Positions 789 to 33,551 of a stretch of 35,707 nucleotides of DNA are shown piece by piece. The position numbers and the translations under genes are program-made. The stretch is from assembly GCA_003141195.1 (NCBI GenBank), contig PLLC01000074.1, forward strand, positions 2,679-38,385. The letters are read 5' to 3'. The notes under the pieces are model-generated. The model saw only the letters and a program-made list of their open reading frames with translations. It did not search any database and was not told the DNA's origin. Numbering within the stretch: position 1 is the stretch's first letter; each line of letters starts with the position of its first letter. The DNA is from Syntrophaceae bacterium. Its GTDB lineage: Bacteria; Desulfobacterota; Syntrophia; Syntrophales; UBA5619.

Positions 789-792
789 GGCG

Positions 793-1836: not shown

Positions 1837-1848
1837 GGAGGCAACAAT

Positions 1849-3579: not shown

Positions 3580-3588
3580 ACGAAGAAA

Positions 3589-3708
3589 ATGGAGAAGGAG
3601 ATGTGGGAGTTGAAGATGGTGCATATCACGATCATCAACACGGGGGATGAGGTTCTGCGTTTCGTCTGGATCTATTCCCCACAACTGGCGGGTCACCGGA
3701 AAGGGTGA
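3589..3708 (+). pseudogene. Cupin C-terminal remnant
   Basis: A 39-codon open frame ends with INTGDEVLRFVWIYSP, which matches the last beta-strands of small cupins (typically 'NTGDEPLRFLW.Y.PPG'). The metal-binding first half of the domain, with its HxH and Glu ligands, is missing, and nothing upstream encodes it because the AOR gene ends ten bases earlier. I read this as the tail left after an internal deletion. A functional micro-protein is possible but no separate ribosome-binding site is convincing. It sits between the AOR and the creatininase-family gene. Confidence 0.6.
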
Positions 3709-3735
3709 TCCTTAATAATGGAAAGGAGAGTAAAT

Positions 3736-4701: not shown

Positions 4702-4729
4702 GATGTTTAATCTTCTCTTAGGCTGTAAT

Positions 4730-4765
4730 CCCCCGCCGCTTGCGGCGGGGGTGGTTCATTCTTTT
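4730..4765 (+). terminator. Rho-independent terminator after the IolN-like gene
   Basis: A ten-base GC-only stem (CCCCCGCCGC / GCGGCGGGGG, 4730-4739 with 4742-4751) closes on TT and is followed by a T-rich stretch ending in TTTTT. This ends the first operon. A second short hairpin (TCCCGCCG / CGGCGGGA, 4789-4807) lies further on in the leader of dctP. Confidence 0.85.
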
Positions 4766-4845
4766 TGAGATGTAGGTTTGGGCGGCGTTCCCGCCGATCC
4801 GGCGGGATTTGAGAAGGCAGTCAACTTGAAAAGGAGGGAGAGAAA

Positions 4846-5886: not shown

Positions 5887-5891
5887 GAAAA

Positions 5892-5940
5892 GAGGTCAAG
5901 GGGGGGGCGCACGCTTGATTCCCCTCCCCTTGACTTTCTG
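5892..5940 (+). terminator. Hairpin terminator downstream of dctP
   Basis: GTCAAGGGG (5895-5903) pairs with CCCCTTGAC (5926-5934), extendable inward by GGGG/CCCC with one bulged T. It is followed by TTTCTGTT. It would reduce read-through from dctP into the membrane component, a common way to make receptor in excess. The T-tract is short, so it may be leaky. Confidence 0.6.
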
Positions 5941-6203
5941 TTGCAATGGGTCTCGTCACATTCCATAAACCATGCCGCTCGTTGGGCCAATCCCGCGAAA
6001 GCATGAATCGTGGAGGTTTGACCGGATTCAGGCTTGCGCGGAATTGACACACTTGGTTTTGGCAATTGACCGGTGTATCGCTTGCCGCCATCGGGGCAGG
6101 GATGGCCGTTCGTTCTGATGAACAGTAAATCCTCAGGATGACTGCAAGATGTTGCGTCAAAGCGGGTGAGAGTATCGTATAAACTGATTGAAGGAGATTT
6201 GAA
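5941..6203. other. Non-coding interval between dctP and dctQM
   Basis: I see no credible gene here. A TTGACA hexamer occurs at 6044-6049 but no good -10 box lies 16-18 bases after it, so I do not call a promoter. A ribosome-binding site (GAAGGAG) precedes the dctQM start at 6204. Confidence 0.4.
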
Positions 6204-8030: not shown

Positions 8031-8154
8031 GCTTCCGATTCGAGGGGCTGCAACAGGCACTGAGAAGGATGAAATGGTAAGTGTCGATTTTTCTTAAAGC
8101 CGGTGGGCGAGGCAAAAGCGGATAGGCCGGAAGGCGGCCTTTGCTGAAGGGGGC

Positions 8155-9436
8155 ATGATGAGATTAGCCCGGGACGAACAGGAGATGTTGGAAGGCAAAG
8201 AAGGCCCGGCCCGGCAGAAGGCGATGGAGCTGCTGGTGAAGTACGCCGAAGGGCTGGGCGCCGACCGCTTTGTCGATACCAATAACGCCACCGTCATCGT
8301 CGGCTCCATACCCGATGTCAAGATCGTTCAAAAGGTTGTCCCCTCCCTGGACGCCGACGAAATCGCCTCCCGGTTTCTCCTCGACAGTGACGAGCGGGTG
8401 GTGCTGGATAAGGTGAAGGCATTTACGACGACGAATGCCACCTTTCGGGACCAGAGATACCCCGACCTCCAGAGAGGGGGAAAGCCCCACTGCGATCTGC
8501 TCCAGAAGATGGTGGATTACTTGAAACGGGTGGGTGTCATCCATCTTGCCACGTGCACTCCCTATCAGCGGAAATATTCCGATGAAGGGGGAGCATTGCG
8601 CCTGGACGGAGTCGTCGGCAGTCGCTTTCTGCAACTCCGTGCTCGGCGGCCGCACCAACATCGAAGGGCTGCACAGTTCCTTCGCGTCGGCCGTCACCGG
8701 GAAGACGCCCCTGTGGGGGATGCATCTAAGTGAGAACCGTTTCGGCAACGTCATTGTTGATGTCGAAGTCGATATGGAACTGATCCGGGACTGGTATCTG
8801 ATGGGATATTATGTCGGAAGCCAGGTCGGACTCGATATCCCTATTTATACCCATATCAACCGGGTGCCGGACCTGACCCGGCTGATGGGTTTATGCGCCG
8901 CCGGAATCGCTTCGGGAAGCATCGTCAAGTTTCACATTGTGGGAATCACCCTGGAAGCCCCGACCCTCGAAGCAGCCAGCGGAAACGGGAAGAATCTGAA
9001 GGTCCTGAAATTCGGGAAGAAAGAGCGCCGGATCGCCTACGAAAGGCTGAATCATTCCGACAGCGATGAGGTGGACATTGTGGTCCTGGGCTGTCCCCAT
9101 GCCGGTTTGGACCGTATCAGGACGATTGCCGGGATGCTTGAAGGGAAGAAGATCCATAAGAATACCCGTCTCTATATTACGACCTGCCACCCGATCAAGA
9201 ACACGGCCGACAAACAGGGATTTACTGAGATCATCGCCAAGGCCGGCGGTTCGGTGTGGGAAGATGCCTGCGGACTTGTCCTGTCTGTCGATCCTTCAAC
9301 GGTCTTTGCCTGCGACTCGGCCAAGATGGCGAACTACCTTCCCGGAGAGACCGGGTCGAAAAACACCTGGTTCGGCACGACCGAAGAGTGCATCCAGGCA
9401 GCCATCACCGGAAAGTGGCGAGGGGAGCTGAAATGA
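8155..9436 (+). pseudogene. Aconitase X large (catalytic) subunit, frameshifted
   Basis: Two overlapping frames together encode a bacterial AcnX catalytic subunit. The first (8155 to about 8568) gives the N-terminal 138 residues ending in ATCTPYQ. The second continues from about 8570 with GNIPMKGEHCAW, ESSAVAFCNSVLGGRTN and, later, VLGCPHAG and TCHP, ending at 9436. The conserved TCTPYxxGNxP motif straddles the break, so one extra base (or two missing) lies close to 8569. AcnX enzymes are Fe-S or mononuclear-metal dehydratases, for example cis-3-hydroxy-L-proline dehydratase or archaeal phosphomevalonate dehydratase. Cys134 (TCTPY) and the Cys of GCPH are cluster-type ligands. The intact small subunit gene overlaps its stop codon, so either this is recent decay or an assembly/sequencing error. 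Confidence 0.85.
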
Positions 9437-9846
9437 GGAAAATCGTCCTGCGGGGGAGAAGAATCAACGGAGGGGCGGCGGAAGGTGAGGCGCTCGTTAC
9501 GAAGGAGTCGTTGGGAGGTTTCGGCTGTTTCGATTTTGACACGGGAAAAGTGATTGATTTCGGCCATGAATGGTATGGCCAAACCGTGTCGGGAAAGATA
9601 CTGGTATTCAGAACGGCCAAGGGGTCGTCGGCGTGGTCGATTGCCCATCAGGCGTTGCGGTTTGTCGGCAAGTCTCCGAAGGCTTATGTCACCAAAGAAT
9701 GCAACCCCCAAACGGTCCTTGGCTCCGTGGTTGCTCGCGTACCGGCCGTAACCGAGTTTGATCAGGACCCTACGGAGGTGATTTCTACCGGAGACTGGGT
9801 AAAAGTCGATGCCGATCAGGGCTTGGTTGAAATCACGAAGAAATAG
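9433..9846 (+). CDS. Aconitase X small subunit (swivel domain, DUF126)
   Basis: The 137-residue protein is the AcnX swivelling domain. It begins with MRKIVLRGRRINGGAAEGEAL, the family's opening strand, and has FGHEWYGQTVSGKILVF (residues 36-52) and GSSAWSIA. In bipartite bacterial AcnX enzymes this subunit closes over the active site of the large subunit. The start codon overlaps the stop of the large-subunit frame (ATGA at 9433-9436), showing translational coupling and supporting the view that the large subunit was recently intact. Substrate is unknown; hydroxyproline metabolism is not otherwise visible here, so another hydroxy acid is likely. Confidence 0.88.
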   Translation: MRKIVLRGRRINGGAAEGEALVTKESLGGFGCFDFDTGKVIDFGHEWYGQTVSGKILVFRTAKGSSAWSIAHQALRFVGKSPKAYVTKECNPQTVLGSVVARVPAVTEFDQDPTEVISTGDWVKVDADQGLVEITKK

Positions 9847-9860
9847 CGAAAGCGGTTGGG

Positions 9861-10658
9861 ATGAAGTATTCCATTTGTATCGAAAATCTTTATAAGGATC
9901 GTTCCTTTGAAGACAAATTTTCCGCAGCCCGAAGCGATGGGTTTGAATACTGTGAGTTCTGGACATGGAAGGATAGAAACTGGAAGGATATCAAGAAAGC
10001 CATTGCGGATTCAGGAATCAAAATCGCCGCCTTCTCGGGTGACGACGAGTACTCCCTGATCAATCCCGATGAGAACCGCCTTTATGCCGAGTTTTTGAGG
10101 GAATCGATCAAAAAGGCGAAGGAGATTCATTGCCGCTACCTTGTGATTCACTCCGATGCGCTGAATCAGGACGGAAGCGCAAAGGAGATGGTCAAGCCGC
10201 TCAGCTATGAAGCCAAGCTTTTGAATATATACAAGGTCCTTAAGGGCGTTGCTCCCTTTGCGGAAATGGAGGATGTTACGCTTGTCCTTGAACCGCTGAA
10301 TACCCGGTTGGGGCAGCCCAGGGCGCATCAGAACTATTTTCTGGATCATCCCCAAACTGCCTTTGAGCTCACCCGGCAGGTCGGATCGGAAAAGGTTAAA
10401 GTTTTATATGACATTTATCACATGCAGTTGATGGCCGGCAACATCATTCATACGCTGAAAGAAAACATGGATCAGCTTGGCTATATCCATCTCGCAGATG
10501 TTCCCGGAAGTCATGAACCCGGCACAGGGGAGCTTCATTGCAATAATATTTTAAAGGCACTCGATTCCATGGGATATGCCGGGTTTGTCGGATTTGAGCT
10601 GCTTCCCTCTGAAACGGACGAAAAGGCAGTCAAAGCAATTCAAGGGATTTGGATTTAA
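9861..10658 (+). CDS. Hydroxypyruvate isomerase-like sugar isomerase/epimerase (TIM barrel)
   Basis: The 265-residue protein is a xylose-isomerase-like TIM barrel. Conserved metal and acid-base residues are Glu144 (LVLEPLN), Asp184 in YDIYHMQ, His210 in YIHLAD and Glu246 in FELLP. HEPGTGE at 218-224 is the signature of the Hyi/OtnI branch. OtnI converts 2-oxo-tetronate to 3-oxo-tetronate, the step before the DUF1537 kinase encoded at 16455; Hyi converts hydroxypyruvate to tartronate semialdehyde; IolO, a more distant relative, epimerises 5-keto-L-gluconate. Context with both the IolN-like hydrolase and the kinase/aldolase pair leaves two roles open, with OtnI-like activity favoured by the motif pattern. 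It begins 14 bases after the AcnX small subunit. Confidence 0.82.
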   Translation: MKYSICIENLYKDRSFEDKFSAARSDGFEYCEFWTWKDRNWKDIKKAIADSGIKIAAFSGDDEYSLINPDENRLYAEFLRESIKKAKEIHCRYLVIHSDALNQDGSAKEMVKPLSYEAKLLNIYKVLKGVAPFAEMEDVTLVLEPLNTRLGQPRAHQNYFLDHPQTAFELTRQVGSEKVKVLYDIYHMQLMAGNIIHTLKENMDQLGYIHLADVPGSHEPGTGELHCNNILKALDSMGYAGFVGFELLPSETDEKAVKAIQGIWI

Positions 10659-10694
10659 CGCCGCCAATGGTTTAATCAATTCAAAGGAGGATAT

Positions 10695-10796
10695 ATGAAA
10701 AAGATCTTGTTTCTGCACGGGGTCAATCACAACATGTTCGGCAAGAGGGATCCGGTCCAGTATGGCACGGTAATGCTCGATGAGATCAATCAATGA
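10695..10796 (+). pseudogene. Truncated type II 3-dehydroquinase stump (aroQ N-terminus)
   Basis: A 33-codon frame with an excellent ribosome-binding site (AAAGGAGG) encodes a protein start nearly identical to that of the intact gene at 29539: both share MKKIL, LHGVN, NMFGKRDP, YGT and LDEIN. It then stops at TGA straight after DEINQ, losing the remaining three-quarters of the enzyme. The next gene begins 15 bases later. It is the 5' scar of a second aroQ-like copy, left by deletion or recombination. It could be translated but cannot be an enzyme. Confidence 0.85.
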
Positions 10797-10810
10797 AATA
10801 AGGAGGAAGT

Positions 10811-11857
10811 ATGAAAAAAGTGCGATTGGGTTTGATTGGAATGGGAATGATCGGGAAGCTTCATGCGGAGACCATGAGCAAGATGAAGGATATCGAGTTT
10901 GTGGCTGCTTCCGATGCCGATGCGAAACACCAAAAGACGGCCACGGAGCTCGGAACCAAATTTTACCAATCCTACAAGGAGATGATCGGGAAAGACACGC
11001 TGGATGGCGTGGTGATCGCCGTTCCGAACGAGCTCCATCTCCCGGTGGGTGCCACCTGCGCGAAAAAAGGGTTGAATATCCTTATGGAAAAACCCATTGC
11101 GGCCGACCTTGAATCCGCGGACCGCCTGATTCAGGCAGCCAAGGAGAATAAGGTGATTCTTATGGTCGGTCACCACCGGAGGCATAACCCGATGATCGAA
11201 GAGCTCCGGCGTATCGTGAGGGGAGGAGAGATCGGAAAACTCGTCGGCGTCACGGTTCTCTGGTCCTTATACAAACCAAAGGACTATTTTAAGGGACCCT
11301 TTGCCTGGAGGGCGCAACCGGGTGGAGGTCCGATCCGGATCAACTTGATCCATGAGATCGACAATATCCGTTACATCTGCGGCGACATCACGCGGTTGTA
11401 TGCGGAGGTGAGCCATGAGGCGAGAAAATTCCCGGTTGAGGACACGGTCAGCATCAGCCTGCGAATCGCGGGCGGCGCAGTCGCGAATATTTTTCTCACC
11501 GATACGGCCCCCGGAAATGTCGGATACGAGGCCAACACCGGTGAGAACCTCTTCTTTTACCAGAGCCCTCAGAACTGCTACTACTATTACGGCACGGAGG
11601 GAGTGGTGACCTTCCCGGGGATGAAAAAATTCTTCTATCGGGACCCTGCGAAAGCGGGATGGCAATACGCCCTCTGTGAAGAGGGAATCAAGATCGACCG
11701 CGAGGATCCTTACACCCGGCAGATCAGAAACTTCTGCGGGGTCATCCAGGGCACGGAAAAGCCAAAGATCGACGGAGTGGATGCCAGGAAAACGCTGGAG
11801 GTTGCCCTGGCGATTCAGAAATCAGGAGAAACGGGCCAGGCCATCGTTTTTGGATGA
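10811..11857 (+). CDS. Gfo/Idh/MocA-family oxidoreductase, copy 1 (inositol/sugar dehydrogenase-like)
   Basis: The 348-residue protein has an N-terminal Rossmann domain with GMGMIG (10-15) for NAD(P), the MEKP motif with Lys94, and a C-terminal alpha/beta domain whose active-site HEID (His181, Asp184) occurs in GGGPIRINLIHEID. This is the layout of inositol 2-dehydrogenase (IolG) and related cyclitol/sugar dehydrogenases, which oxidise a ring hydroxyl to a ketone. AGGAGG precedes the ATG. A close paralogue of the same length follows directly, so the two may oxidise different positions or isomers of one substrate. In the Thermotoga-type inositol pathway such an enzyme supplies the keto-inositol that a zinc dehydrogenase and then IolN process; all three types occur here. 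Exact substrate is inferred only. Confidence 0.9.
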   Translation: MKKVRLGLIGMGMIGKLHAETMSKMKDIEFVAASDADAKHQKTATELGTKFYQSYKEMIGKDTLDGVVIAVPNELHLPVGATCAKKGLNILMEKPIAADLESADRLIQAAKENKVILMVGHHRRHNPMIEELRRIVRGGEIGKLVGVTVLWSLYKPKDYFKGPFAWRAQPGGGPIRINLIHEIDNIRYICGDITRLYAEVSHEARKFPVEDTVSISLRIAGGAVANIFLTDTAPGNVGYEANTGENLFFYQSPQNCYYYYGTEGVVTFPGMKKFFYRDPAKAGWQYALCEEGIKIDREDPYTRQIRNFCGVIQGTEKPKIDGVDARKTLEVALAIQKSGETGQAIVFG

Positions 11858-11960
11858 CCCATCCCCGCCCCTCCCTTCCCCGGCCGAGGGGGAGGGATAC
11901 AGGAGCACCATCCCTCCCCGCTTGTGGGGAGAGAGACAGGGAGGGGAGAATTTTCATATA
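11856..11960. repeat. Copy B of the palindromic repeat
   Basis: The sequence between the two Gfo/Idh/MocA genes consists of alternating C-rich and G-rich arms (CCCCTCCCTTCCCC / GAGGGGGAGGGATACAGG, then CCCTCCCCGC / GTGGGGAG). It ends in ATTTTCATATA, the same end as copy C. Its left edge (GGATGA) coincides with the stop codon of the upstream gene. The copy carries a second hairpin and is therefore longer than copy C. Confidence 0.75.
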
Positions 11961-11977
11961 GAAGTCAGGAGGGTAAG

Positions 11978-13024
11978 ATGGAAAAAGTGAGAATCGGCTT
12001 GATTGGTTTAGGGTTGATGGGGACACCCCACGCCAGAATCCTGAAAAAGGTCGAAGAGTGCGACCTTGTGGCCGCCGCTGAAGTCGATGAGAAGCAAAAA
12101 AAGGTTGCGGAGGAGCTGGGGATCAAATTCTATAAGAACTATGAGGAGATGATCGAAAAGGAAACCCTCCAGGGGGTCATCCTTGCCCTTCCCAACCATC
12201 TCCATGCGCCGATCGGCATCGCCTGCGCCAAGCGGGGGCTTCATCTTTTTGTCGAAAAGCCCATTGCCCCGAGCGTCGCCGAGGCGGACCGCCTCATAGC
12301 GGCGGCGAAAGAGAACAAGGTTCAGATATTGGTGGGGCATCAAAGGCGATTCAGTAGTCTCGTTGAAAAGGCCCGTGAAATCGTCACCGGAGGTCAACTG
12401 GGCCGGCTGGTGGGCGTCACCATCACGTGGGCTCTGCTGAAACCGGGGTCCTATTATGAGGGTCCTCTGTCCTGGAGAAAAGAACAGAAGGGCGGCGGGC
12501 CGATCCTGATCAATCTGATCCACGAGATCGACAACCTCAGGTATATCTGCGGCGAGATCGATGAAGTCTATGCCCAGGTGAGCAACCGGATCAGGAACTT
12601 CCCTGTGGAGGATACCGCCAGCATCACCTTGCGATTCAAGAGCGGAGCCATAGGAACGGTCTTCCTGACCGATTGTTCGCCTTCCCTGACATCCTGGGAA
12701 GGGACGACGGGGGAAAACCCGCTGCTCTACAGCGATTTCGGGAATTGTTACAATTTCTTCGGTACGGACGCCTCCCTGTTGTTTCCCCAGATGAAGAGAC
12801 GCTACTATGCCGACCCGACGAAGGTGGGGTGGAATTATCCCATCACCGAGCAGGGATACAAAATACCCCGGGAAGATCCCTACATCAAAGAATTCAGTCA
12901 CTTTTGCAGAGTAATCCAAGGAAAAGAAATCCCGCGGACTTCCGGAGAGGATGGGAGGAGGACCCTGGAGGTGACCCTGGCGATCAAGAGGTCGGGAGAA
13001 ACAGGTCAACCCATCCGGTTGTGA
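11978..13024 (+). CDS. Gfo/Idh/MocA-family oxidoreductase, copy 2
   Basis: The 348-residue protein is a paralogue of the preceding gene with the same domain order: GLGLMG (10-15), VEKP with Lys94, and HEID (His182, Asp185) in GGGPILINLIHEID. The alignment runs almost without gaps from end to end, indicating tandem duplication. I chose the ATG at 11978 because CAGGAGGG lies just upstream; an upstream in-frame ATG at 11924 falls within the repeat and is unlikely. Notable differences are HQRRF versus HHRRH at 121-125 and the region around 160-172, both near the expected substrate pocket, so substrate specificity may differ. Role as for copy 1: NAD(P)-dependent oxidation of a cyclitol or sugar acid. 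Confidence 0.9.
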   Translation: MEKVRIGLIGLGLMGTPHARILKKVEECDLVAAAEVDEKQKKVAEELGIKFYKNYEEMIEKETLQGVILALPNHLHAPIGIACAKRGLHLFVEKPIAPSVAEADRLIAAAKENKVQILVGHQRRFSSLVEKAREIVTGGQLGRLVGVTITWALLKPGSYYEGPLSWRKEQKGGGPILINLIHEIDNLRYICGEIDEVYAQVSNRIRNFPVEDTASITLRFKSGAIGTVFLTDCSPSLTSWEGTTGENPLLYSDFGNCYNFFGTDASLLFPQMKRRYYADPTKVGWNYPITEQGYKIPREDPYIKEFSHFCRVIQGKEIPRTSGEDGRRTLEVTLAIKRSGETGQPIRL

Positions 13025-13055
13025 TGGCCCCTGCCCGAGGCGGGCATAACGAAGG

Positions 13056-13123
13056 ATGAAAATCACCCCCACCCCTCCCTCCCCCGTCGAGGGGGAGGGA
13101 TACAGGGAGGGCGGCATTTTCAT
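13056..13123. repeat. Copy C of the palindromic repeat, with ATGAAAAT/ATTTTCAT ends
   Basis: This is the clearest copy. Terminal inverted repeats ATGAAAAT (13056-13063) and ATTTTCAT (13116-13123) bound an imperfect palindrome with CCCTCCCCC-GTCGA-GGGGGAGGG at its core. It lies in the 125-base gap upstream of a zinc dehydrogenase. Size and structure resemble a REP/MITE-like element. Confidence 0.8.
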
Positions 13124-13149
13124 ATAAAATGAAGAGGAGGTTCTCTGAT

Positions 13150-14181
13150 ATGAAAGCCATTGTGAAAACGAGTCCAGAAGCAGGAGTTTTCGAGGTGAAG
13201 GAGGTTCCTAGGCCGAAACCTGGGCGGGGTGAGATCATGGTCCAGGTGAAGGCGGCAAGTCTCTGCTACACCGACGTCGCCATTTTGAACAACAAGTATA
13301 AGGGACGAAGGCCGGTGCCCATCCCCATCGTCATGGGCCATGAAGGGACGGGAGTGGTTTACGAATTGGGAGAAGGGGTGGAAAACGTCTCGGTGGGGGA
13401 CCGCGTCGGTCTGGAAGTGCTTTATGGATGCGGCGCCTGCATCAATTGTCTCAACGGGAACACCAACATGTGTATGAACTGGAGGCACATCGGCATTACC
13501 TACGATGGAATCTTTGCCGAGTATGTGGTGGTTCCGTCCCGCGGCGCCCACAAGCTTCCGGACAATGTCTCTTTTGTCGATGCCGCCTGCCTTGAACCCA
13601 TCAGCCTGACCGTGCGGACGCTGACGCAGGTGAAACCCATGGTGGGCGATACCGTCGCGATCTTCGGACCGGGGGCGATCGGTCTCTTTCACCTTCAGGC
13701 CTTCAAGGCCGCCGGGGCCGGTCAGGTGATCATGATCGGGATCGATCAGGATGTAAAGCGATTCGAGACCGCCAAGGCATTGGGGGCCGATCACATCGTC
13801 AATTCGAGCAGGGAAGATGTGGTGAAACGGGTCCGGGAACTGACCGATGGCTTCGGGGCCGATATCGTCGTGGAAACGGCGAGTTCGCCCGTTGTTATCC
13901 CGCTCGCGATGGAGGTGGCGGCTGCACGGGCTCGTGTTTCCACGTTCGGCCTCTATCCCGAGGCAACGGTCAGCCCCCTCACCATCAATCGAAGCGGCTT
14001 GCAGATCTTTGGCGACGTTGGATCTTTGCCTCGCTATTTTGTCACGGCGGTCCGCTGGATGAAGTATGGGAAGGTCAAGGCAACACCCCTGGCCAATCGA
14101 ACTTTCCGTCTGGAAGAGGCCAAGGATGCCCTTGAGGCGGCCCGGCTGGGGGAAGTTGCGAAGGTCATTTTTGAGCTATAG
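13150..14181 (+). CDS. Zinc-dependent alcohol/polyol dehydrogenase (MDR family), copy 1
   Basis: The 343-residue medium-chain dehydrogenase has catalytic-zinc ligands Cys39 (SLCYTD) and His64-Glu65 (GHEGTG). Four structural-zinc cysteines are at 94, 97, 100 and 108, and a GPGAIG nucleotide-binding motif is near 174-179. GAGGAGG eight or nine bases upstream selects the ATG at 13150 over 13129. Sorbitol, threonine and IolM-type inosose dehydrogenases belong to this family; with the Gfo/Idh/MocA pair upstream, a second oxidation of a cyclitol or sugar acid is plausible. The gene is bracketed by oppositely oriented repeat copies C and D. Confidence 0.9.
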   Translation: MKAIVKTSPEAGVFEVKEVPRPKPGRGEIMVQVKAASLCYTDVAILNNKYKGRRPVPIPIVMGHEGTGVVYELGEGVENVSVGDRVGLEVLYGCGACINCLNGNTNMCMNWRHIGITYDGIFAEYVVVPSRGAHKLPDNVSFVDAACLEPISLTVRTLTQVKPMVGDTVAIFGPGAIGLFHLQAFKAAGAGQVIMIGIDQDVKRFETAKALGADHIVNSSREDVVKRVRELTDGFGADIVVETASSPVVIPLAMEVAAARARVSTFGLYPEATVSPLTINRSGLQIFGDVGSLPRYFVTAVRWMKYGKVKATPLANRTFRLEEAKDALEAARLGEVAKVIFEL

Positions 14182-14210
14182 CAGGGGACCGTTTCTTTGA
14201 CGGGATGGCG

Positions 14211-14281
14211 CTGCTCCTCCCTCTCGACGGGGGAGGGGCAGGGGTAAATTTCATCCCTACGTTGTGTCCGCCGCGGGCGGA
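14211..14281. repeat. Copy D of the palindromic repeat, inverted relative to copy C
   Basis: Read on the opposite strand this matches the left part of copy C and its flank. It has a C-rich/G-rich core (CTCCCTCTCGACGGGGGAGGGG here), then GGGGTAAATTTCATCC, then CGTTGTG and a CCGCCGCGGGCGG block that corresponds to CCCGAGGCGGG left of copy C. It lacks a clear distal end. Together C and D form an inverted pair around the zinc dehydrogenase gene. Confidence 0.7.
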
Positions 14282-14302
14282 GGATTGGTTGCAGACCTTT
14301 GA

Positions 14303-14332
14303 CGACCCTGCGGATGGTTTTCCGCAGGGTCG
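14303..14332. other. Perfect 12-bp hairpin upstream of the second zinc dehydrogenase
   Basis: CGACCCTGCGGA (14303-14314) and TCCGCAGGGTCG (14321-14332) are exact inverted repeats with loop TGGTTT. The run after the stem is A6, not T, so it is not a normal terminator for + strand transcripts. It stands about 24 bases before the ATG at 14357 and could be a leader structure, an operator or a repeat-derived palindrome. Confidence 0.6.
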
Positions 14333-14356
14333 AAAAAATTACAGGATGGTGAAAAC

Positions 14357-15343
14357 ATGCGTGAATTGTATCTCGAAAAACCCGGCGACTTAAAGATCAG
14401 GGAAAGTGGACCGGCCACGGCGCCCAAAGACAATGAGGTAAAAGTCAAGGTGATCTACGGAGGGATTTGCGGCTCGGACCTGAGGGTTCTCAGAGGGACT
14501 ATCCCTTATGCGACCTATCCTTGCCGTCCCGGCCATGAAATTTTGGGGACGGTCGTTGAGGCGGGGGAAAAATCGCCGTATCAGGTCGGGACCAAAGTAG
14601 CGTCTTTTCCCAATACCTACTGCGGTAAATGTGAATTCTGCCTGCAAGGCAGAACCAATATCTGCGCGAATAAGAAATCCTTTGGGGTCACCTGCGATGG
14701 TCTCTTTGCCCAAGAGATTATTCTGGATTCCGAGTTCGTGGTGCCTATTCCTGCAGATCTTGTGGATGAGAGGGCAATATTGGTCGAGCCGTTTGCCGTG
14801 AACGTCCATGCCTTGAAGAGAACCAATATTTCCAAGGGGAAATCGGTGGCCGTAATTGGTTGTGGGACTGAAGGCTTGCTGGCGATCGCCCTCCTGAACC
14901 ATATGGGCGCCGATATAACCGTGCTGGATATCAACCCGATCAAAATGGAAAAAGCGAAGAGTTTTAATAAAAATATAAAAGCGATGTATCCTGCTGATGC
15001 GAAAGACCAAGTATTTGATGTCGTGGTTGAAGCTGCCGGAGTGAAGGCGTCCATCGAGCAGGCGTTCCAGCTCGTGAAACCAGGGGGGGCTTTGATTTCA
15101 TTAGGCATTACCGGAGATGCGATCAATTACCCGGCCCTGCGCATCACCCGCGGCGAGATCACCATTTACGGGACCATCATTTACACGAAGAAAGATTTCG
15201 TGGACGCATTCGCCCTCCTGCAAGATCCTGCATTTAATGTTGCACCCATCCTTTCGAGGATTGATCCTTTTGCGAAATATCAGGAAGCATTTGACGATGC
15301 GTTAACCGGTAACTTCGCCAAAATCGTTCTTGATTTTCGGTAG
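14357..15343 (+). CDS. Zinc-dependent alcohol/polyol dehydrogenase (MDR family), copy 2
   Basis: The 328-residue protein carries catalytic-zinc ligands Cys38 (GGICGSD) and His60-Glu61 (PGHE). Structural-zinc cysteines are at 89, 92, 95 and 103 (CGKCEFC...C). A Rossmann GCGTEG replaces the more usual GxGxxG. It resembles sorbitol/L-threonine-type dehydrogenases and is only distantly related to the zinc dehydrogenase immediately upstream, so it is not a simple duplicate. It probably oxidises a secondary hydroxyl of a polyol or sugar acid with NAD. The ketopantoate-reductase-like gene begins 30 bases downstream. Confidence 0.88.
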   Translation: MRELYLEKPGDLKIRESGPATAPKDNEVKVKVIYGGICGSDLRVLRGTIPYATYPCRPGHEILGTVVEAGEKSPYQVGTKVASFPNTYCGKCEFCLQGRTNICANKKSFGVTCDGLFAQEIILDSEFVVPIPADLVDERAILVEPFAVNVHALKRTNISKGKSVAVIGCGTEGLLAIALLNHMGADITVLDINPIKMEKAKSFNKNIKAMYPADAKDQVFDVVVEAAGVKASIEQAFQLVKPGGALISLGITGDAINYPALRITRGEITIYGTIIYTKKDFVDAFALLQDPAFNVAPILSRIDPFAKYQEAFDDALTGNFAKIVLDFR

Positions 15344-18298: not shown

Positions 18299-18320
18299 TT
18301 TTTATGGGAAATTGTCGAGA

Positions 18321-19338: not shown

Positions 19339-20607
19339 ATGAGAATGATCAGCGAGAGATCGACGCTCCGCGGCGACGTCCTGATTCCGACGAGCAAGTC
19401 GCACACCATCCGGGCGGTGACCATCGCCGGCCTGGCGCACGGGAAGTCGATCATTCACCATCCCCTGGAATCGGGTGATGGTCTTGCGGCGGCCAGGGCG
19501 GCCGGCATGTTCGGGGCCGGGATCGATCTGGGTGACTCCTGGGAGATCGAAGGGGTGGGCGGTCATCCGCGTGTGCCCGGTAACGTTGTGGATGTCGCCA
19601 ACTCCGGGACTACAATGAATTTCTGCATGGGAACGGCAAGCCTGGCGGAGGGGACGACCGTACTGAGCGGCGACCGTCAGATCGTCAGGCGCTCCGTCCA
19701 GCCGCTGATCGAGGCGCTAAACGGGCTTGGCGCGGAGGTGGTTTCGACCCGGAACAACGGTCTTCCTCCGGTCGTGGTCCGGGGGCGTCTGAAGGGGGGC
19801 AAAACGCGGCTCAGCGGGATCGTCTCCCAGTACGTTTCGAGCCTTTTGGTTCATTGTCCCCTGATCGAGAAGGATTCCGAGTTCGAGGTCTACGATGTTC
19901 ACGAGAAACCCTATATCCGGATGACTCTGAAATGGCTCGATCGTCAGGGGATCCGCTATGAATCCTCCGACGACCTGAGCCGTTTCAAACTTTTCGGGGG
20001 GCAGTCTTATTATGGCCAGGACGTGACCATCCCCGGCGATTTTTCATCCGCAACCTTTTTCCTGGTTGCGGGCGTGTTGTGTGATGCGGACATCACGCTG
20101 CTGGGGCTGGATATGAACGATGTCCAAGGGGACAAGAGGGTCGTGGCCTGTCTCCAGGAAATGGGGGCGCCGATCCGGCTTGAAAACGGGGGCGTCCATG
20201 TACGGTCGGGAGCCCTGCAGGGCATCGAGATCGACATGGCCGACATTCCGGATGCACTTCCGGCGATGGCTGTGGTGGGATGCTTTGCAAGGGGGAAGAC
20301 CGTTCTGCGCAACGCGGCCAATGCGCGGCTCAAGGAGACGGACCGGATATCGGTCATGGCCGCGGAACTGGGGCGTCTCGGCGCCCGGGTGGAAGAACTC
20401 CCCGATGGAATGATCATCCATGAAAGCAGTCTCAAGGGCTGCCCCGTCCGGGGGTACGGCGACCATCGGGTGGTGATGTCCCTGTCCGTCGCCGGCCTGG
20501 CCATCCCCGGCCGGACGGAGGTGGACACGGCGGAGGCGGTTGAGGTTACGGTTCCGAACTTTGTGCAATTGATTCAGGGTCTCGGGGGGAAGATGAACAG
20601 GGAGTAG
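19339..20607 (+). CDS. aroA: EPSP synthase family protein (AroA-like), atypical active site
   Basis: The 422-residue protein is a two-domain enolpyruvyl transferase homologous to 5-enolpyruvylshikimate-3-phosphate synthase. Conserved elements are SKSHTIR (19-25, Lys20/Arg25), NSGTT (88-92), VSQY, PGDFSSATF, RLKETDR and GDHRVVMS. Two places are unusual: the family's GTxMR Arg (E. coli Arg100) is Asn94, and the 'RPM/RPI' after the second loop is R118-S-V, keeping the PEP-binding Arg but not the Pro. A chorismate-synthase-like gene and an ABC importer follow in the same operon, unlike typical housekeeping aro clusters. It may make EPSP with altered properties or act on a related cyclic substrate. 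The ATG at 19339 is accepted; ATG 19345 is an alternative. Confidence 0.85.
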   Translation: MRMISERSTLRGDVLIPTSKSHTIRAVTIAGLAHGKSIIHHPLESGDGLAAARAAGMFGAGIDLGDSWEIEGVGGHPRVPGNVVDVANSGTTMNFCMGTASLAEGTTVLSGDRQIVRRSVQPLIEALNGLGAEVVSTRNNGLPPVVVRGRLKGGKTRLSGIVSQYVSSLLVHCPLIEKDSEFEVYDVHEKPYIRMTLKWLDRQGIRYESSDDLSRFKLFGGQSYYGQDVTIPGDFSSATFFLVAGVLCDADITLLGLDMNDVQGDKRVVACLQEMGAPIRLENGGVHVRSGALQGIEIDMADIPDALPAMAVVGCFARGKTVLRNAANARLKETDRISVMAAELGRLGARVEELPDGMIIHESSLKGCPVRGYGDHRVVMSLSVAGLAIPGRTEVDTAEAVEVTVPNFVQLIQGLGGKMNRE

Positions 20608-20712
20608 CATGCGGGATGATACGGACCGCGATTTTCTTGCGTCGCGTCTGCGGGGTCCGTTGCTCCGGAAACACGATCCTTTCCAGTTATGGCATGAAAG
20701 AAGAGGAGGGGT

Positions 20713-21873
20713 ATGCAGGGCAATACCTTTGGGCGGGTTTTCCGCGTTACGGCCGCGGGTGAATCGTACGGCCCGGCCTTACAGATCATCGTGGATGGGG
20801 TGCCTCCCGGAGTGCCCATCACCGAGACGGAAGTTCAGTATGAGCTCGACCGCCGTCGTCCGGGCCAGAGCGCCATCACCTCGCCCCGTCAGGAAAAGGA
20901 CAGGGTTCAAATCGTGGCCGGCGTTTTCGACGGCCGCACCACCGGCGCGCCGGTCGGCATGATCATCTACAACGTCGATACGGAACCCTTCCATGTCAAG
21001 CAGTATGCAAGGGTGATGGAGCGGGTGCGGCCCGGACACGCGGACTACACCTTTCATATCAAATACGGACGTTTCCGGGACTGGCGGGGCGCCGGTCGTT
21101 CCAGCGGTAGGGAGACCGCCTGCCGGGTGGCTGCCGGGGCGGTGGCCAAGAAGATTCTCGGCCGGGAAGGAATCGAGGTGCGGGGCTATACGAAAGAGAT
21201 GGCCGGAATAGCGGCCGGTTCGAACCTGACCTGGAACGACATCGTCGCCAATACGGAAACCAATATTGCCCGTTGCCCCGATCCTGCGGCGAGCGAAAGG
21301 ATGATCGCCAAGACCCTGGAGGCCGCCCAAAAAGGGGATACCGTCGGCGGGATCATTGAGGTGATCGCCCGTGGGGTCCCTGCCGGTCTGGGCGAGCAGG
21401 TCTTTGACAAGCTGACGGCCGCCCTGGCCCATGCCATGACGAGCATCGGTTCCGTCAGGGGTATCGAGTTCGGGGACGGTTTCGCGGAGGCGCGCCGGCT
21501 GGGCAGCGAAAACAACGACATCCCTTATTATGACGAGAAGGGGGTTGTTCGTTTCCGCACCAACCGCTGTGGCGGGATGCTCGGCGGAATCAGCAACGGT
21601 GACGACATCGTTTTTCGGATTGCCGTCAAGCCGACCTCAACCATCTCCATCGATCAAATGACGATCAACGTGATCCAAAAACGAAATGAAAAACTCGCTG
21701 CGGAGACGCGCCGGGACCCGACCATCGTTCCCCGAGTGGTGCCGGTGGCCGAAGCCATGACGGCGATGGTGCTGGTGGACTTTCTGATGATGTGGAACGG
21801 GTACCGTTCGCTCCGCCACGACATGGAAGGTCCCCAGATCGGGCAGGAGATATTGTCGGCGCCGGATGCGTAG
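20713..21873 (+). CDS. aroC: Chorismate synthase family protein (AroC-like) with His-to-Tyr active-site change
   Basis: The 386-residue protein aligns throughout with the FMN-dependent chorismate synthase family: GNTFG (3-7), RRRPGQ (47-52), RPGHADYT (106-113, His109 kept), GRSSGRET, NRCGGMLGGISNG, and RRDPTIVPR with its Asp. The family's near-invariant GESHG reads GESYG, so the first active-site His is Tyr19; the codon is TAC. In fungal chorismate synthase that His and the later one are both needed for catalysis. The protein is otherwise intact. Following an AroA-like enzyme with its own altered site, it could be a specialised paralogue catalysing a related 1,4-elimination, or a slow chorismate synthase. 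GAGGAGG precedes the ATG. The ABC importer starts 28 bases later. Confidence 0.9.
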   Translation: MQGNTFGRVFRVTAAGESYGPALQIIVDGVPPGVPITETEVQYELDRRRPGQSAITSPRQEKDRVQIVAGVFDGRTTGAPVGMIIYNVDTEPFHVKQYARVMERVRPGHADYTFHIKYGRFRDWRGAGRSSGRETACRVAAGAVAKKILGREGIEVRGYTKEMAGIAAGSNLTWNDIVANTETNIARCPDPAASERMIAKTLEAAQKGDTVGGIIEVIARGVPAGLGEQVFDKLTAALAHAMTSIGSVRGIEFGDGFAEARRLGSENNDIPYYDEKGVVRFRTNRCGGMLGGISNGDDIVFRIAVKPTSTISIDQMTINVIQKRNEKLAAETRRDPTIVPRVVPVAEAMTAMVLVDFLMMWNGYRSLRHDMEGPQIGQEILSAPDA

Positions 21874-21901: not shown

Positions 21902-22681
21902 ATGACGGTGAAGATCGAGGCAAAGGATCTGACGAAGGTCTATCCGTCCCGGAACGGGCCGATATGCGCCCTGCGCGACTTCTCCCTTCGCGTGGAGGAA
22001 GGAGAATTCGTCTGCATCGTGGGTCCCTCCGGCTGCGGGAAATCGACCTTTCTCCGGATCCTCGGAGGTCTCATCACGCCGAGTTCCGGCCGGGTCGAAC
22101 TTTTCCCGCGGGATGAGAAGGCGCCGCTCCAGAACATCGTCTTTCAGGAATATGCCATTTTCCCCTGGAAGACGGTTCTGGACAATGTGGCCTTCGGTCT
22201 GGAAATGCGCGGCGTTCCCCGGACAAAACGGCGGGAGACTGCCCGCGACTGGATCCGGAAGGTGGGCCTGGCGAAGTTTGCCGATGCCTACCCCCACCAG
22301 CTCTCCGGCGGCATGAAGCAGCGGGTGAGCATCGCCCGGGCCTTTGCGAACGATCCCGAGATTCTCCTCATGGATGAGCCCCTCGGCGCCCTCGATGCCC
22401 AGACCCGGGTCATCCTCCAGGGGGAGCTGGTCCGCCTGTGGGAGGCCTCCCGCAAGACCGTGGTCTACATCACCCACAGCATCGAGGAGTCGGTCCTCCT
22501 GGGAGACCGGATCGTTCTGATGACCGCCCATCCCGGCACGTACAAGACCGAATTTTCCGTACCCTTTGCGCGCCCCCGCAGTTTTGAGCTGACCGGCGCG
22601 CCCGAATTTGCGCGCCTGAGTTACGCCATCTGGCAGGAACTCGAAGTGGAAGTGAAGCGCACCATGGAGAAACAGTTATGA
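21902..22681 (+). CDS. ABC importer ATPase, nitrate/sulfonate/taurine type
   Basis: The 259-residue ATPase has Walker [10 protein letters not shown] (41-49), a Q-loop at FQEYAIFPW (81-89), the signature LSGGMKQR (134-141), Walker B ILLMDEP (154-160) and the switch His in YITHS. The sequence FPWKTV after the Q-loop and the overall length are typical of the SsuB/TauB/NrtD group. It energises the permease encoded next, whose ATG overlaps its stop (ATGA). Together with the receptor at 23705 it forms a complete importer placed in the same run as aroA- and aroC-like genes. Confidence 0.93.
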
Positions 22682-23580
22682 GCGGATCTTGTTGGCGTAT
22701 GGCTTCCTGCACCCGGGATCGTCTTATTTCCGTCTTCTTTCCGCTGGCCCTTCTGGCCCTCTGGGAGATGGCGGTACGGCTGCAGTGGCTCGACGGGCGT
22801 TTCTTTCCTGCGCCCACGGCCGTGGCCGCGGCCCTCTGGGAGCTCACGGTCAAGGGCGAGCTTCTGGGAAAACTCTGGCTCCTGCCCGGGTTGGTCGCCG
22901 CGGGAGACTTTTCGGGCGCCCGGAAGGTGTTCGCGGAGGGGCACCTCTGGGTGAGCCTGTTCCGGATTTTCTCGGGGTTTTTTGTGGGCGCCGTTCCCGG
23001 CATCATCCTCGGGGTCGTTATGGGGATGAACCGGACGATCCGGGTCGCCCTCGACCCGGTTGTTTCGGCGGTTTACGTCCTCCCCAAGATCGCCATCCTT
23101 CCCTTGGTGATGCTGGTCTTCGGCATCGGTGAGGTGAGCAAGATCGTGATCGTCGCCATTGCCTCTTTCTTCCTTGTCCTGATCAACACCACGGTGGGTG
23201 TGCGGGACATCGAACCCATCTTCATCGAGGCGGGCAGGAACTACGGGGCTAACCGCCGGCAGATGTTTCGCCACATCATCATCCCGGCGGCTCTCCCCAT
23301 CATCTTCTCGGGCCTCCGGCTGAGCCTCGGCACCTCCCTGATCGTCATCATCGCGGCCGAATTCGTGGCTGCCAATTACGGCCTGGGCTACCTCATCTGG
23401 TTTTCCTGGCAGACCCTGCTTACGGAAAACATGTTCGCCGGCCTCGTGGTCATCATGATCCTCGGGGCGCTGTTCACGAGCGGTCTCCAGGCCCTGGAAC
23501 GGCGGCTCATGCCCTGGCAGAGGGAGGAGATGCCGGCCTCTGCCGACGGGGCGGATGTGGGAGGAACGGGCAAGGTATGA
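22678..23580 (+). CDS. ABC importer permease, nitrate/sulfonate/taurine type
   Basis: The 300-residue integral membrane protein has several hydrophobic helices and the ABC-permease coupling (EAA) loop EAGRNYGANRRQMFRHI followed by IPAALP, near residues 182-204. It belongs to the SsuC/TauC/ThiX group. The N-terminal region carries an inserted-looking segment (residues about 50-85, TVKGELLGKLWLLPG) before the conserved core, as in many family members. Translationally coupled to the ATPase through a four-base overlap. Substrate is presumably that of the receptor downstream. Confidence 0.92.
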   Translation: MSGSCWRMASCTRDRLISVFFPLALLALWEMAVRLQWLDGRFFPAPTAVAAALWELTVKGELLGKLWLLPGLVAAGDFSGARKVFAEGHLWVSLFRIFSGFFVGAVPGIILGVVMGMNRTIRVALDPVVSAVYVLPKIAILPLVMLVFGIGEVSKIVIVAIASFFLVLINTTVGVRDIEPIFIEAGRNYGANRRQMFRHIIIPAALPIIFSGLRLSLGTSLIVIIAAEFVAANYGLGYLIWFSWQTLLTENMFAGLVVIMILGALFTSGLQALERRLMPWQREEMPASADGADVGGTGKV

Positions 23581-23704
23581 CGCCGGGAGGGCGCCTGTTG
23601 CGCACCCACCGGTCAACATATTCCCTTCGCGTCCCCTGACGTGGACCGGTTGTCCGGGGCGGAGGATGGCGAAGGGAGAACAGGGGAAAACAAGGGAGGG
23701 CATG

Positions 23705-24718
23705 ATGAAGAAAGGCAAAGTGGTTTTGGGTTGGATCGGCGCCGTCGTGCTGCTGATGTCCCTTGCCGGTCCGGCGGTCGCCGCCGACAAGGTCAAGGTC
23801 GCATACGTCGCCATCATGAATTTTGCGCCCCTCTATCTGGCGATCGAGCGCGGGTTCATGAAGGAGCAGAACATCGAAGTGGAGATGCAGAAGGTCGCCT
23901 CCGGAACCGAGGCGATGGCGTTTCTCGCCCAGGGTTCCCTCGATGCCGGGGGGATCGGCATTGGGGCTTCGACCTATAACGCCTTCAACAAGGGGTTCGA
24001 CCTGCGCATCGTCGGATCGGCTGCGGTGCAGCCCCGGAAGGACGGACCCACCATCATCATCGTCCGGAAGGATCTGCGGGATTCCGGCAAGGTGAAGTCG
24101 GTGGCCGATCTCAAGGGGATGAAGGTCGCCCTCGCCGGAGGTCCGGGGACGACGGGCGCCTATTTCGTTGCCCGGGCGCTGAAGGATGCGGGGCTGACGG
24201 TGAAGGACATCGAGATCGTGAATCTGGCCAATCCCGACATGCCGCTGGCCATCGAGAAGTCCTCCATCGATGCGGCTCTCGTCGGGCCTCCCTACTCGGA
24301 TCAGATCCTCGCCGGCGGCAAGGGCGTGCTCCTGGCCAAGGATACGGCGCCCGGCGCCATGACGACCGTCTTCATGTATTCGGGGAAATTCATCAAGGAG
24401 CGCCCGGACGCGGCCAAGCGGTTCATGGTTGCGCTGGTCCAGGGGTCCCGGGCGATGCAGGGAAACAAATACCTCGACCCGGCCAACATGAAGGGCTATC
24501 TCCGGTATGTCACCTCCACGGAGGCGGCCATCCGGGCCGGGAAACCGCAGGTCTACGATCCCGACCTCAAGGTGGATATCGACAGCGTCAAGAACATGGA
24601 AGAGATCTTCCGCTGGGCCGGCTGGACGAATTATACGACCGAGATTCCCCAGGAGAAGATGGCCGATGCCTCTTTCGCGGCCAACGCGGTGAAGGTTCTG
24701 GGACCGTACAAGCCCTGA
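23705..24718 (+). CDS. ABC importer substrate-binding protein, SsuA/THI5-like
   Basis: The 337-residue periplasmic protein has a signal peptide (MKKGK, hydrophobic core, cleavage near PAVAA-D at residue 27) and the SsuA/THI5-like two-lobed fold: KVAYVAIMNFAPLYLAIE at the mature N-terminus, KGMKVALAGGPGTTGAYF around 134-151 and ALVGPPYSD. Members bind small organic or amino-sulfonate ligands, pyrimidines, aromatic acids or phthalate-type compounds. The start is 23705 or the adjacent in-frame ATG at 23702; AGGGAGGG lies upstream. Genes with the shikimate-type enzymes in the same run suggest a cyclic or aromatic acid ligand, which is only an inference. Confidence 0.9.
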   Translation: MKKGKVVLGWIGAVVLLMSLAGPAVAADKVKVAYVAIMNFAPLYLAIERGFMKEQNIEVEMQKVASGTEAMAFLAQGSLDAGGIGIGASTYNAFNKGFDLRIVGSAAVQPRKDGPTIIIVRKDLRDSGKVKSVADLKGMKVALAGGPGTTGAYFVARALKDAGLTVKDIEIVNLANPDMPLAIEKSSIDAALVGPPYSDQILAGGKGVLLAKDTAPGAMTTVFMYSGKFIKERPDAAKRFMVALVQGSRAMQGNKYLDPANMKGYLRYVTSTEAAIRAGKPQVYDPDLKVDIDSVKNMEEIFRWAGWTNYTTEIPQEKMADASFAANAVKVLGPYKP

Positions 24719-28802: not shown

Positions 28803-29512
28803 AAATAACAGATCTGGTTGCAGGATATGGGAAGTCGGAAGTGCTGCGGGGGATCAGCCTTGAGGTAAAGGAAGGGCAGATTGCTATTATCATAGGGCCC
28901 AACGGGGCAGGAAAAACCACGCTGTTCCGCACCATTTTCGGTCTCCTCCCGACACGGAGCGGCAAGATTCTCTTTGAGAACGAGGATCTTACAAAAATGT
29001 CCTCGCTGACAAGGGTCAAGAAAGGCATTGCCCTGGTTCCCCAGGGAAGGAACGTGTTTCCGGACTTGAATGTTCTTGAAAACTTAGAGATGGGCGCTTA
29101 TACCGTTGTGGCGGATAAGAAGGAGATCCAGGCAAGGATGGAAGAGTGCTACAGGCTTTTCCCGGTGCTTCGCGAAAGGAGAATACAGAGGGCCGCCACA
29201 CTGAGCGGTGGAGAACAGCAGATGCTGGTTATTGCCAGGGCGTTGATGAGCAAGCCGAGATTCATGATGCTCGATGAACCTTCACTGGGCATCTCTCCGC
29301 GTCTCGTGAAGGAAATCTTTAAAACCATCCATACCATCAATCAGACCACCAATACAACAATCGCACTGGTCGAGCAGAATGCCAAGATAGCCTTAAAGCT
29401 TGGTCACGTCGGTTATGTCATGGAGGGCGGTCAGATCAAGATGAGCGGAACAACCCATGATCTGGCCTGCGATGAGAGGGTTAAACATGCCTACCTTGGG
29501 AAAAGGGAGTGA
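28796..29512 (+). CDS. livF: Liv-type ABC ATPase LivF
   Basis: The 238-residue ATPase has Walker A GPNGAGKTT (34-42), VPQGRNVFPDLNVLENL as the Q-loop region, signature LSGGEQQM, Walker B FMMLDEPSLGISP and LVEQNAK with the LivF-type Gln in the switch region. It overlaps livG by seven bases and completes the importer. A type II dehydroquinase gene follows after 26 bases, apparently in the same transcript. Confidence 0.93.
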   Translation: MLEITDLVAGYGKSEVLRGISLEVKEGQIAIIIGPNGAGKTTLFRTIFGLLPTRSGKILFENEDLTKMSSLTRVKKGIALVPQGRNVFPDLNVLENLEMGAYTVVADKKEIQARMEECYRLFPVLRERRIQRAATLSGGEQQMLVIARALMSKPRFMMLDEPSLGISPRLVKEIFKTIHTINQTTNTTIALVEQNAKIALKLGHVGYVMEGGQIKMSGTTHDLACDERVKHAYLGKRE

Positions 29513-29538
29513 AGAAGAGGAAATCCTTCGGAGGAATT

Positions 29539-29982
29539 ATGAAGAAGATCCTGGTATTGCACGGCGTCAATTTCAACATGTTCGGGAAGAGGGACCCGGC
29601 CCATTACGGGACCATCACCCTCGATGAGATCAATCGGAAATTGGTGGAACTGGGGAAAGAACTGGGCTGCATGGTCGAGACCTTCCAGACCAACTTTGAA
29701 GGGGCGATCTGCGAGAAGATCCACCAGGCCCACATCGACAAGGTGGACGCCGTCCTGATCAACGCCGGCGCCTGGACCCATTACAGCTACGGCCTGCGCG
29801 ACGCGCTTGCCATTCTCAAGGTCCCCATCGTGGAGGTCCACATGTCCAACATCCACGCGCGGGATGAATTCCGCCATTTTTCCGTGATCGCGCCGCTAGC
29901 CAAGGGGCAGATCGCGGGATTCGGCCTCCAGAGCTACCTGCTGGGCCTGCGGGCCGCCGTGGAGCTGCTGAAAGAGGCGTAA
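29539..29982 (+). CDS. aroQ: Type II 3-dehydroquinate dehydratase family (AroQ-like)
   Basis: The 147-residue protein has the typical length and residues of type II dehydroquinases: the catalytic-type Tyr in RDPAHYG (residue 23), Asn in FQTNFEG, INAGAWTH in place of the common INPGAYTH, HMSNIHARDEFRH with its His and Arg, and a C-terminal GFGLQSYLLGL. The opening LHGVNFN differs from the usual INGPNLN. GGAGGA upstream selects the ATG at 29539. It is placed between a Liv-type importer and a molybdopterin oxidoreductase, so it may serve catabolism of an imported quinate- or shikimate-like compound rather than aromatic amino acid synthesis. A truncated second copy of its 5' end is present at 10695. 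Confidence 0.88.
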   Translation: MKKILVLHGVNFNMFGKRDPAHYGTITLDEINRKLVELGKELGCMVETFQTNFEGAICEKIHQAHIDKVDAVLINAGAWTHYSYGLRDALAILKVPIVEVHMSNIHARDEFRHFSVIAPLAKGQIAGFGLQSYLLGLRAAVELLKEA

Positions 29983-32774: not shown

Positions 32775-33551
32775 ATGAATGAGATGCATCCGTTGTTTTC
32801 ATTGAAGGGAAAGGTTTCCATGATTACCGGGGCGGCCCGGGGGATCGGACTCGGCATGGCCAAGGTCCTGGCCGGCGCCGGCTCCGAGCTGATCCTGATC
32901 GACGTCCTGGAGGAGGAATTGAAAGAGGCGGCCCGGGAGATTTTCCTGGAGACGGGGAAAAGGCCTCTGGCGATCACCGGAAACCTCGGGAACATGGACG
33001 ATATCAAACGGATGGTTCGAGAAGCCCATGAACGCCATCCCCGGATCGACTGCCTGATCAACAATGCGGGGACGACGGTCCGCAAGCCGTTTGTGGAGAT
33101 CACCCCGGAGGAGTTCGACCGGGTGATCGTGGTGAACCTCAAGGCCGCCTATTTCCTGAGCCAGAAGGTCGCCCGGGGAATGATCGAGGCCGGCAGGGGG
33201 GGAAAGATCATCACCGTCGCCTCATCCACGAGCTTCCTCGGCGTGAACAACCTGTCGGCCTATGGCGCCTCCAAGGGGGGCATCTACGCCCTCACCAAGG
33301 GGATGGCCGTCGAGCTTGCCCCGCACAGGATCTGCGTCAACGCCGTCGCCCCCGGATTCTTCCAGACCAACCTCACCCAGGCCGTCTGGGAGGACCCGCA
33401 GAGGCGCGACTGGGCGGTCTCGCGCGTTCCCCTCGGAAGGCTGGGCAAACCGGAGGATATCGCCGGGTCGGTGATCTTTCTGGCGTCGGCCGCCTCCGAT
33501 TACATCACGGGGCAGGTCCTGATCGTTGACGGAGGCTGGATCTCCGCATGA
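32775..33551 (+). CDS. Short-chain dehydrogenase/reductase (classical SDR)
   Basis: The 258-residue protein is a classical SDR: TGAARGIG (18-25) for the cofactor, NNAG (96-99), catalytic Ser near 151, Tyr163 and Lys167 (YGASK), and PGFFQT. Asp43 at the end of the second strand favours NAD over NADP. It is most like 3-oxoacyl-ACP-reductase, gluconate 5-dehydrogenase or 2-deoxygluconate dehydrogenase branches, which accept sugar acids and cyclic ketones. It begins three bases after the ferredoxin gene. It could oxidise or reduce a ring hydroxyl on the product of the AroQ/molybdopterin steps, or be a shikimate-type dehydrogenase substitute. Confidence 0.92.
   Translation: MNEMHPLFSLKGKVSMITGAARGIGLGMAKVLAGAGSELILIDVLEEELKEAAREIFLETGKRPLAITGNLGNMDDIKRMVREAHERHPRIDCLINNAGTTVRKPFVEITPEEFDRVIVVNLKAAYFLSQKVARGMIEAGRGGKIITVASSTSFLGVNNLSAYGASKGGIYALTKGMAVELAPHRICVNAVAPGFFQTNLTQAVWEDPQRRDWAVSRVPLGRLGKPEDIAGSVIFLASAASDYITGQVLIVDGGWISA

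Follow-up and report, generated by a model that had tools for sequence, protein, structure and literature searches.

Organisation of the locus

The window, by which we mean the whole stretch of 35,707 nucleotides that was analysed, contains adjacent genes for an EPSP-synthase-family protein (AroA') and a chorismate-synthase-family protein (AroC'), followed by the genes of an ABC importer. An island of catabolic genes lies in the same stretch. The features, in order, are:

117..15343, + strand: catabolic island core, with RraA, LDH2, AOR, creatininase, TRAP, AcnX, Hyi, two GFO/IDH and two ADH genes
19339..20607, + strand: AroA', EPSP-synthase-family protein of the AroA2 clade, 422 aa (ORF, profile match, alignment)
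20713..21873, + strand: AroC' (Tyr-type), chorismate-synthase-family protein, 386 aa (ORF, profile match, alignment)
20767..20769, + strand: Tyr19 codon, TAC, within GESYG (sequence)
21902..22681, + strand: TauB/NitT-type ABC importer ATPase, 28 bp after aroC'
22678..23580, + strand: TauC-type ABC importer permease (conserved order)
23555..24718, + strand: substrate-binding protein of the TauA/NMT1 type, with a probable true start near 23702 (signal peptide)
29509..29982, + strand: AroQ', 3-dehydroquinate dehydratase of type II, its catalytic motifs intact on visual inspection
32775..33551, + strand: SDR dehydrogenase, near AroQ' in UBA6112 too (86% identical)

Residue changes in AroC' and AroA'

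AroC' matched PF01264, TIGR00033 and NF003793 over its full length with 404-432 bits (415 bits for PF01264), above the cut-offs of 212 and 321. The first-pass annotation had read its motif as GESYG, with Tyr19 encoded by TAC, and this reading held, as did both open reading frames. The His of GESHG (His17 in N. crassa, His11 in M. tuberculosis) has been called common to all known species (PMC2386126), and is described as the proton donor to the leaving phosphate in chorismate synthase (PMC2386126, PMC7144000). In our alignment, this column held His in all 35 His-type AroC proteins compared and Tyr in 8/8 members of the other clade. Without the leaving-group His, AroC' falls outside the canonical His type, and the Tyr-type clade is, judged from its sequences, a natural exception to a residue held to be universal. 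The His of the RHD motif was also replaced, by Arg334, to give RRD; the 35 His-type proteins had His (32) or Ser (3) at this site. Ala127 aligned where Gly is usual. His109 and Asp335 (N. crassa His106 and Asp367) were invariant in the Tyr-type AroC of the window and of family f54, described below, and R59, R129, R133 and R333 were retained across the same proteins. An AlphaFold model of AroC' built from three sequences had a mean pLDDT of 30 and was discarded.

AroA' scored 397.6 bits against TIGR01356, the aroA equivalog model, for which the cut-off is 287.25. The replacement of the GTxMR Arg by Asn94, reported from the sequence at the outset, was verified by alignment to Arg100 (E. coli numbering), a column with Arg in 17/17 canonical AroA proteins compared and Asn in each of the four AroA' proteins known from the window's genus. 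Val403, Glu189 and Val162 were found at the equivalents of Lys411, Ser197 and Ser169, respectively. The Arg100/Ser197/Lys411 residues of EPSP synthase were Asn/Glu/Val in 4/4 AroA' copies, and the alignment retained the equivalents of K22, R124, D313, E341, R344, H385 and R386 in these same copies. In the E. coli enzyme the retained positions are PEP-binding or catalytic residues, and Ser197, the position occupied by Glu in AroA', is presumably a 3-phosphate ligand. Of the four AroA' copies of the genus, those of the window and UBA5619 have the RSV tripeptide that had been noted in place of RPM/RPI, and the two from UBA6112 read RPV; RSV is therefore not a conserved feature, and it was rejected as a signature of AroA'. 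Nor did the impression that everything else in the two proteins was intact survive the alignments, given the changes at 411, 197 and 169 in AroA' and at Arg334 and Ala127 in AroC'.

Conservation within the genus and the catabolic island

Orthologues of AroA' and AroC' were found in two more species of the genus, Syntrophaceae bacterium UBA5619 (G004) and UBA6112 (G009). The named genome collection yielded loci only in UBA5619 and UBA6112 with two short AroA' peptides as the query, which distant relatives would escape. The gene order AroA'-AroC'-TauB-TauC-TauA was identical in all three species. Between them, dN/dS was 0.068-0.070 for AroC' and 0.13-0.15 for AroA', which marks both as functional genes. 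Both proteins also exceeded the curated NCBIfam aroA and aroC cut-offs, and no stops were seen, in agreement with the first-pass view that the pair is not decaying. UBA6112 carries two AroA' copies and, nearby, an N-terminal fragment of AroC'. This fragment (L038:13869-14048, about 60 residues) follows ADH2 and is a broken copy.

Much of the island recurs in relatives. Its core (RraA, LDH2, AOR, creatininase, TRAP, ADH1/2, AroQ') is largely present in UBA6112, without the two GFO/IDH genes. In G020 the core, including GFO/IDH, largely recurs beside the canonical aro operon, without AroA' and AroC'. AroQ' is 82-84% identical to the AroQ adjoining the canonical aro operon in G020 and G014, and in UBA6112 the island also encodes a dehydroquinase of type I as well as corrinoid methyltransferases. 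The gene content suggests a ring-acid catabolic setting, and none of the island genes points to a use for the AroC' product.

The island is a mosaic by its GC3 differences, with values of 0.49-0.67 at window positions 16455-19272 and 24814-28802, and of 0.76-0.84 in the AroA'-AroC'-Tau genes and the canonical aro genes. The aconitase X gene at 8155-9436 lies in two frames (8155-8733 and 8534-9436), indicating a frameshift in the gene or the assembly. In another family, a short contig (L040, G035:C47:1-4675) encodes the C-terminal end of AroC' at 96% identity, with LivKHMGF immediately after it, either from a transfer or from a binning error.

A canonical aro set in the same genome

Outside the window, its genome (G000; 3.27 Mb, 96% complete) contains one more aroC, whose motif is GESHG, and one more aroA. 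They lie on contig C77 in the order pheA-aroA-aroK-aroC-tyrA, with trpE nearby, so that the check for a second, canonical aroA/aroC proposed in the first-pass annotation found one next to aroK and tyrA. The window pair is not the sole copy and has no aroK between or beside its genes, unlike the housekeeping aroA-aroK-aroC arrangement. Because this normal set lies elsewhere in the genome, the AroA'/AroC' pair is accessory.

The canonical locus of G000 (L041:7177-9557) lacks aroD and aroE, as do those of G002, G003 and others; in G004, G010 and G019 both genes lie between pheA and aroA. No AroD or AroE match was found in G000 at E<=1e-6, and the AroQ' of the window may be the sole dehydroquinase of this genome.

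Related pairs across the phylum

The wider search scanned 395 genomes of the phylum. All eight Tyr-type AroC proteins fell in one clade (support 97/91, 98% of bootstraps), and the His-type AroC of the window's genus lay outside it. The AroA partners of the Tyr-type proteins, together with related enzymes of other families, formed another clade, AroA2 (support 98/96). Tyr-type AroC occurred in three lineages, always adjacent to AroA2 on the same strand with no aroK between. In family f54 (G223, G438, G509), the GESYG AroC adjoins an AroA with NSGTSTN, and an AroD-AroE fusion lies upstream of both. The adjacent pair of G157 (f24) is more divergent; its AroC has GGSYQ in place of GESHG, sits on a long branch and lacks other active-site residues as well, which makes the placement and function of this AroC less sure. 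In every AroA2 member compared, Ser197 was replaced by Glu and Lys411 by Val or Ile. At Arg100, Asn was found in the window's genus and f54, Tyr in the group that we call YY, and Arg in G157, and one partial sequence did not span the site. The AroA tree favours neither f54 nor the YY group as the nearer relative of AroA' (AU test, p 0.62 and 0.48). Of the pattern proposed at the outset, in which the altered AroA and AroC would share separate clades next to an importer, both clades were recovered; the importer adjacency held in the genus and not in f54. Searches of open papers found no description of the Tyr-type AroC clade.

Plasmid-borne relatives were rejected as close kin, as all 66 records fell below 60% identity; the eight listed were 46-48% identical and annotated aroC. 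Partial extra aroC genes of the GESYG type lie at contig ends in differing contexts (L115 and L119 in G223, L118 and L120 in G357), which suggests several copies collapsed in assembly. In G157, a DHQ synthase II and a DeoC/LacD-type aldolase adjoin AroE (L193:2663-4452), an archaeal-style early shikimate pathway, and the Tyr-type AroC lies elsewhere in that genome.

The YY group (G443, G198, G203, G215, G177) connects AroA2 with transport. Here AroA2 adjoins TauABC, TTT or TAXI-TRAP importers, and the loci (L097, L099, L098, L102, L096, L101) include IclR regulators in some cases and a chorismate-mutase-type gene in two. The link between an EPSP-synthase-type enzyme and an importer, first remarked on in the window, is thus supported as a recurring pattern. 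PF01264 (AroC) was not found in any of the five YY genomes, nor AroE and TrpE in G443, G198, G177 and G215; G203 has AroE and AroK. Since some of these importer operons occur in genomes without detectable AroC, AroE and TrpE, part of the AroA2 clade probably acts outside the shikimate pathway and chorismate synthesis, and the clade would not be uniformly chorismate-making. This is an unexplained use of an EPSP-synthase-type enzyme.

Function of the Tyr-type pair

The Tyr-type protein was the only PF01264 member found in G223, G438, G509 and G157, a set whose tightest case consists of draft genomes that are 84-95% complete. In G509 the GESYG aroC gene is split over two contig ends. Trp operons are present in G223, G438 and G157, and G509 gave a weaker TrpE/PabB match only. 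Because G223, G438 and G157 need chorismate for these operons, the Tyr-type enzyme most likely makes it in such relatives, and Tyr19 by itself is most likely no signal of a new product. The first-pass annotation had taken the altered residues as a sign of a possible new product, and had named GESYG among ordinary housekeeping enzymes as the observation that would tell against this. That is largely what was found: in G223, G438 and G509 no AroC other than the GESYG protein was found, this protein is encoded with AroDE-AroA, and the first two genomes have trp operons. Two further genomes, G256 and G284, encode a normal AroK and a His-type AroC, and their sole EPSP synthase is of the same AroA2 type, so that AroA2 can probably use shikimate-3-phosphate. 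As the Tyr clade supplies the only AroC found in several tryptophan-making genomes, the role of the GESHG His becomes directly testable by comparing Tyr and His forms.

We consider that the intact, co-inherited and divergent AroA' and AroC' have about an even chance of being a working EPSP-synthase/chorismate-synthase pair, accessory in the window, where it accompanies a TauT-type importer in a catabolic island, and the sole copy elsewhere. What was observed is both sequences, their two clades, the conserved adjacency, purifying selection and a normal second set. AroA' would catalyse enolpyruvyl transfer from PEP to the 5-OH of an acid of the shikimate type, and AroC' would perform the reduced-FMN 1,4-elimination that gives chorismate. 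Tyr19, perhaps with Arg334, would stand where the canonical His protonates the leaving phosphate, and we suggest that one of these two residues may take over leaving-group activation. In the window's genus, the module would probably help the island, with its AroQ', dehydrogenases and importers, to take up or convert a ring acid of the shikimate/quinate type, while bulk aromatic amino-acid synthesis would be covered by the canonical set. This role within the island is the weakest step of the explanation.

The first-pass annotation itself proposed a dedicated route, in which an imported cyclic acid is enolpyruvylated and phosphate or another group is eliminated to give a chorismate-like compound other than chorismate. 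The accessory position of the pair beside a full canonical set, its fixed linkage to TauBCA in three species and the two AroA' copies in UBA6112 are consistent with such a route, as are the AroA2 kin that adjoin TauABC, TTT or TAXI-TRAP importers in other families, several with IclR and some in genomes that yielded no AroC, AroE or TrpE. However, those kin in pathway-less genomes have no AroC partner, the Tyr-type protein is the only AroC found in the trp-operon genomes, AroC' otherwise retains the residues that surround phosphate and flavin, and no candidate substrate presents itself. A new substrate for the window pair is possible, and the dedicated route as a whole appears unlikely, though worth keeping in view.

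The distribution of shikimate kinase raises another alternative. PF01202 was not found in any of the four Tyr-only genomes (G223, G438, G509, G157) and was present in 9/10 genomes with a His-type AroC (Fisher p=0.005, with lineages that are not independent and genomes that are drafts). The canonical order is aroA-aroK-aroC, and the AroA2/Tyr-AroC module never has aroK between its genes in any lineage. The missing PF01202 could reflect a non-homologous kinase or a kinase-independent route. In the latter, AroA2 would take an unphosphorylated or differently substituted shikimate, and the Tyr-type AroC would expel another leaving group to make chorismate without AroK. The altered residues fit this idea, as they include the phosphate-protonating His of AroC and the AroA Ser that we presume to bind the 3-phosphate. 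Nonetheless, in G256 and G284 the same AroA2 occurs alongside AroK and an AroC of the His type, which favours a non-homologous kinase over the kinase-independent route and weakens Glu at Ser197 as proof of an unphosphorylated substrate. The AroC arginines R59 and R333 are also retained. The GHMP-type shikimate kinase, one such non-homologous enzyme, is the archaeal form; a motif scan for it in G438 gave none in 0.34 Mb (about 8% of the genome). Kinase-family swaps do occur in this part of the tree, as in Desulfovibrio, where a shikimate-kinase-like protein serves as the homoserine kinase (PMC5764234). We therefore regard the kinase-independent route as distinctly unlikely. Its fuller form is improbable; there, AroA2 and Tyr-AroC would make up a kinase-independent branch with a non-phosphate leaving group and chorismate or a close analogue as product, housekeeping in some relatives and importer-linked and accessory in the window's genus. 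The missing aroK leaves a gap in the route to chorismate of the Tyr-only genomes.

That AroA' and AroC' are degenerating or inactive duplicates, as the loss of conserved active-site residues and the broken AroC' copy in UBA6112 might hint, is scarcely credible and was rejected on the dN/dS of 0.07-0.15 over three species, together with the lack of stops and the same changes fixed in several lineages.

Comparison with known systems

AroA' is a full-length homologue of EPSP synthase (AroA, EC 2.5.1.19, PF00275/TIGR01356), above the equivalog cut-off and with the catalytic residues retained. It differs from that enzyme at the Arg100, Ser169, Ser197 and Lys411 equivalents, and belongs to a separate clade, being about 35% identical to the AroA of its own genome. 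AroC' is likewise a full-length homologue of chorismate synthase (AroC, EC 4.2.3.5, PF01264/TIGR00033), about 50% identical to canonical relatives. It retains the flavin-site His109, Asp335 and the Arg-rich site, but has Tyr for the GESHG His and RRD for RHD.

The window pair shares its AroC partner with f54 and its importer with the YY group. As in the window, the AroDE-AroA-AroC operon of f54 has a GESYG AroC adjoining an AroA in which Asn, Glu and Val occupy the Arg100, Ser197 and Lys411 positions, respectively; the f54 AroC is 52-55% identical to AroC' and the f54 AroA 46-49% identical to AroA'. However, the f54 AroC is the sole one found there, encoded with AroDE and without an importer, whereas the window has the importer and its genome a canonical second set. 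The YY enzymes resemble the window AroA' in being AroA2 proteins with Glu at Ser197, Val or Ile at Lys411 and an importer linkage, and are unlike the window pair in having Tyr at Arg100 and no AroC partner.
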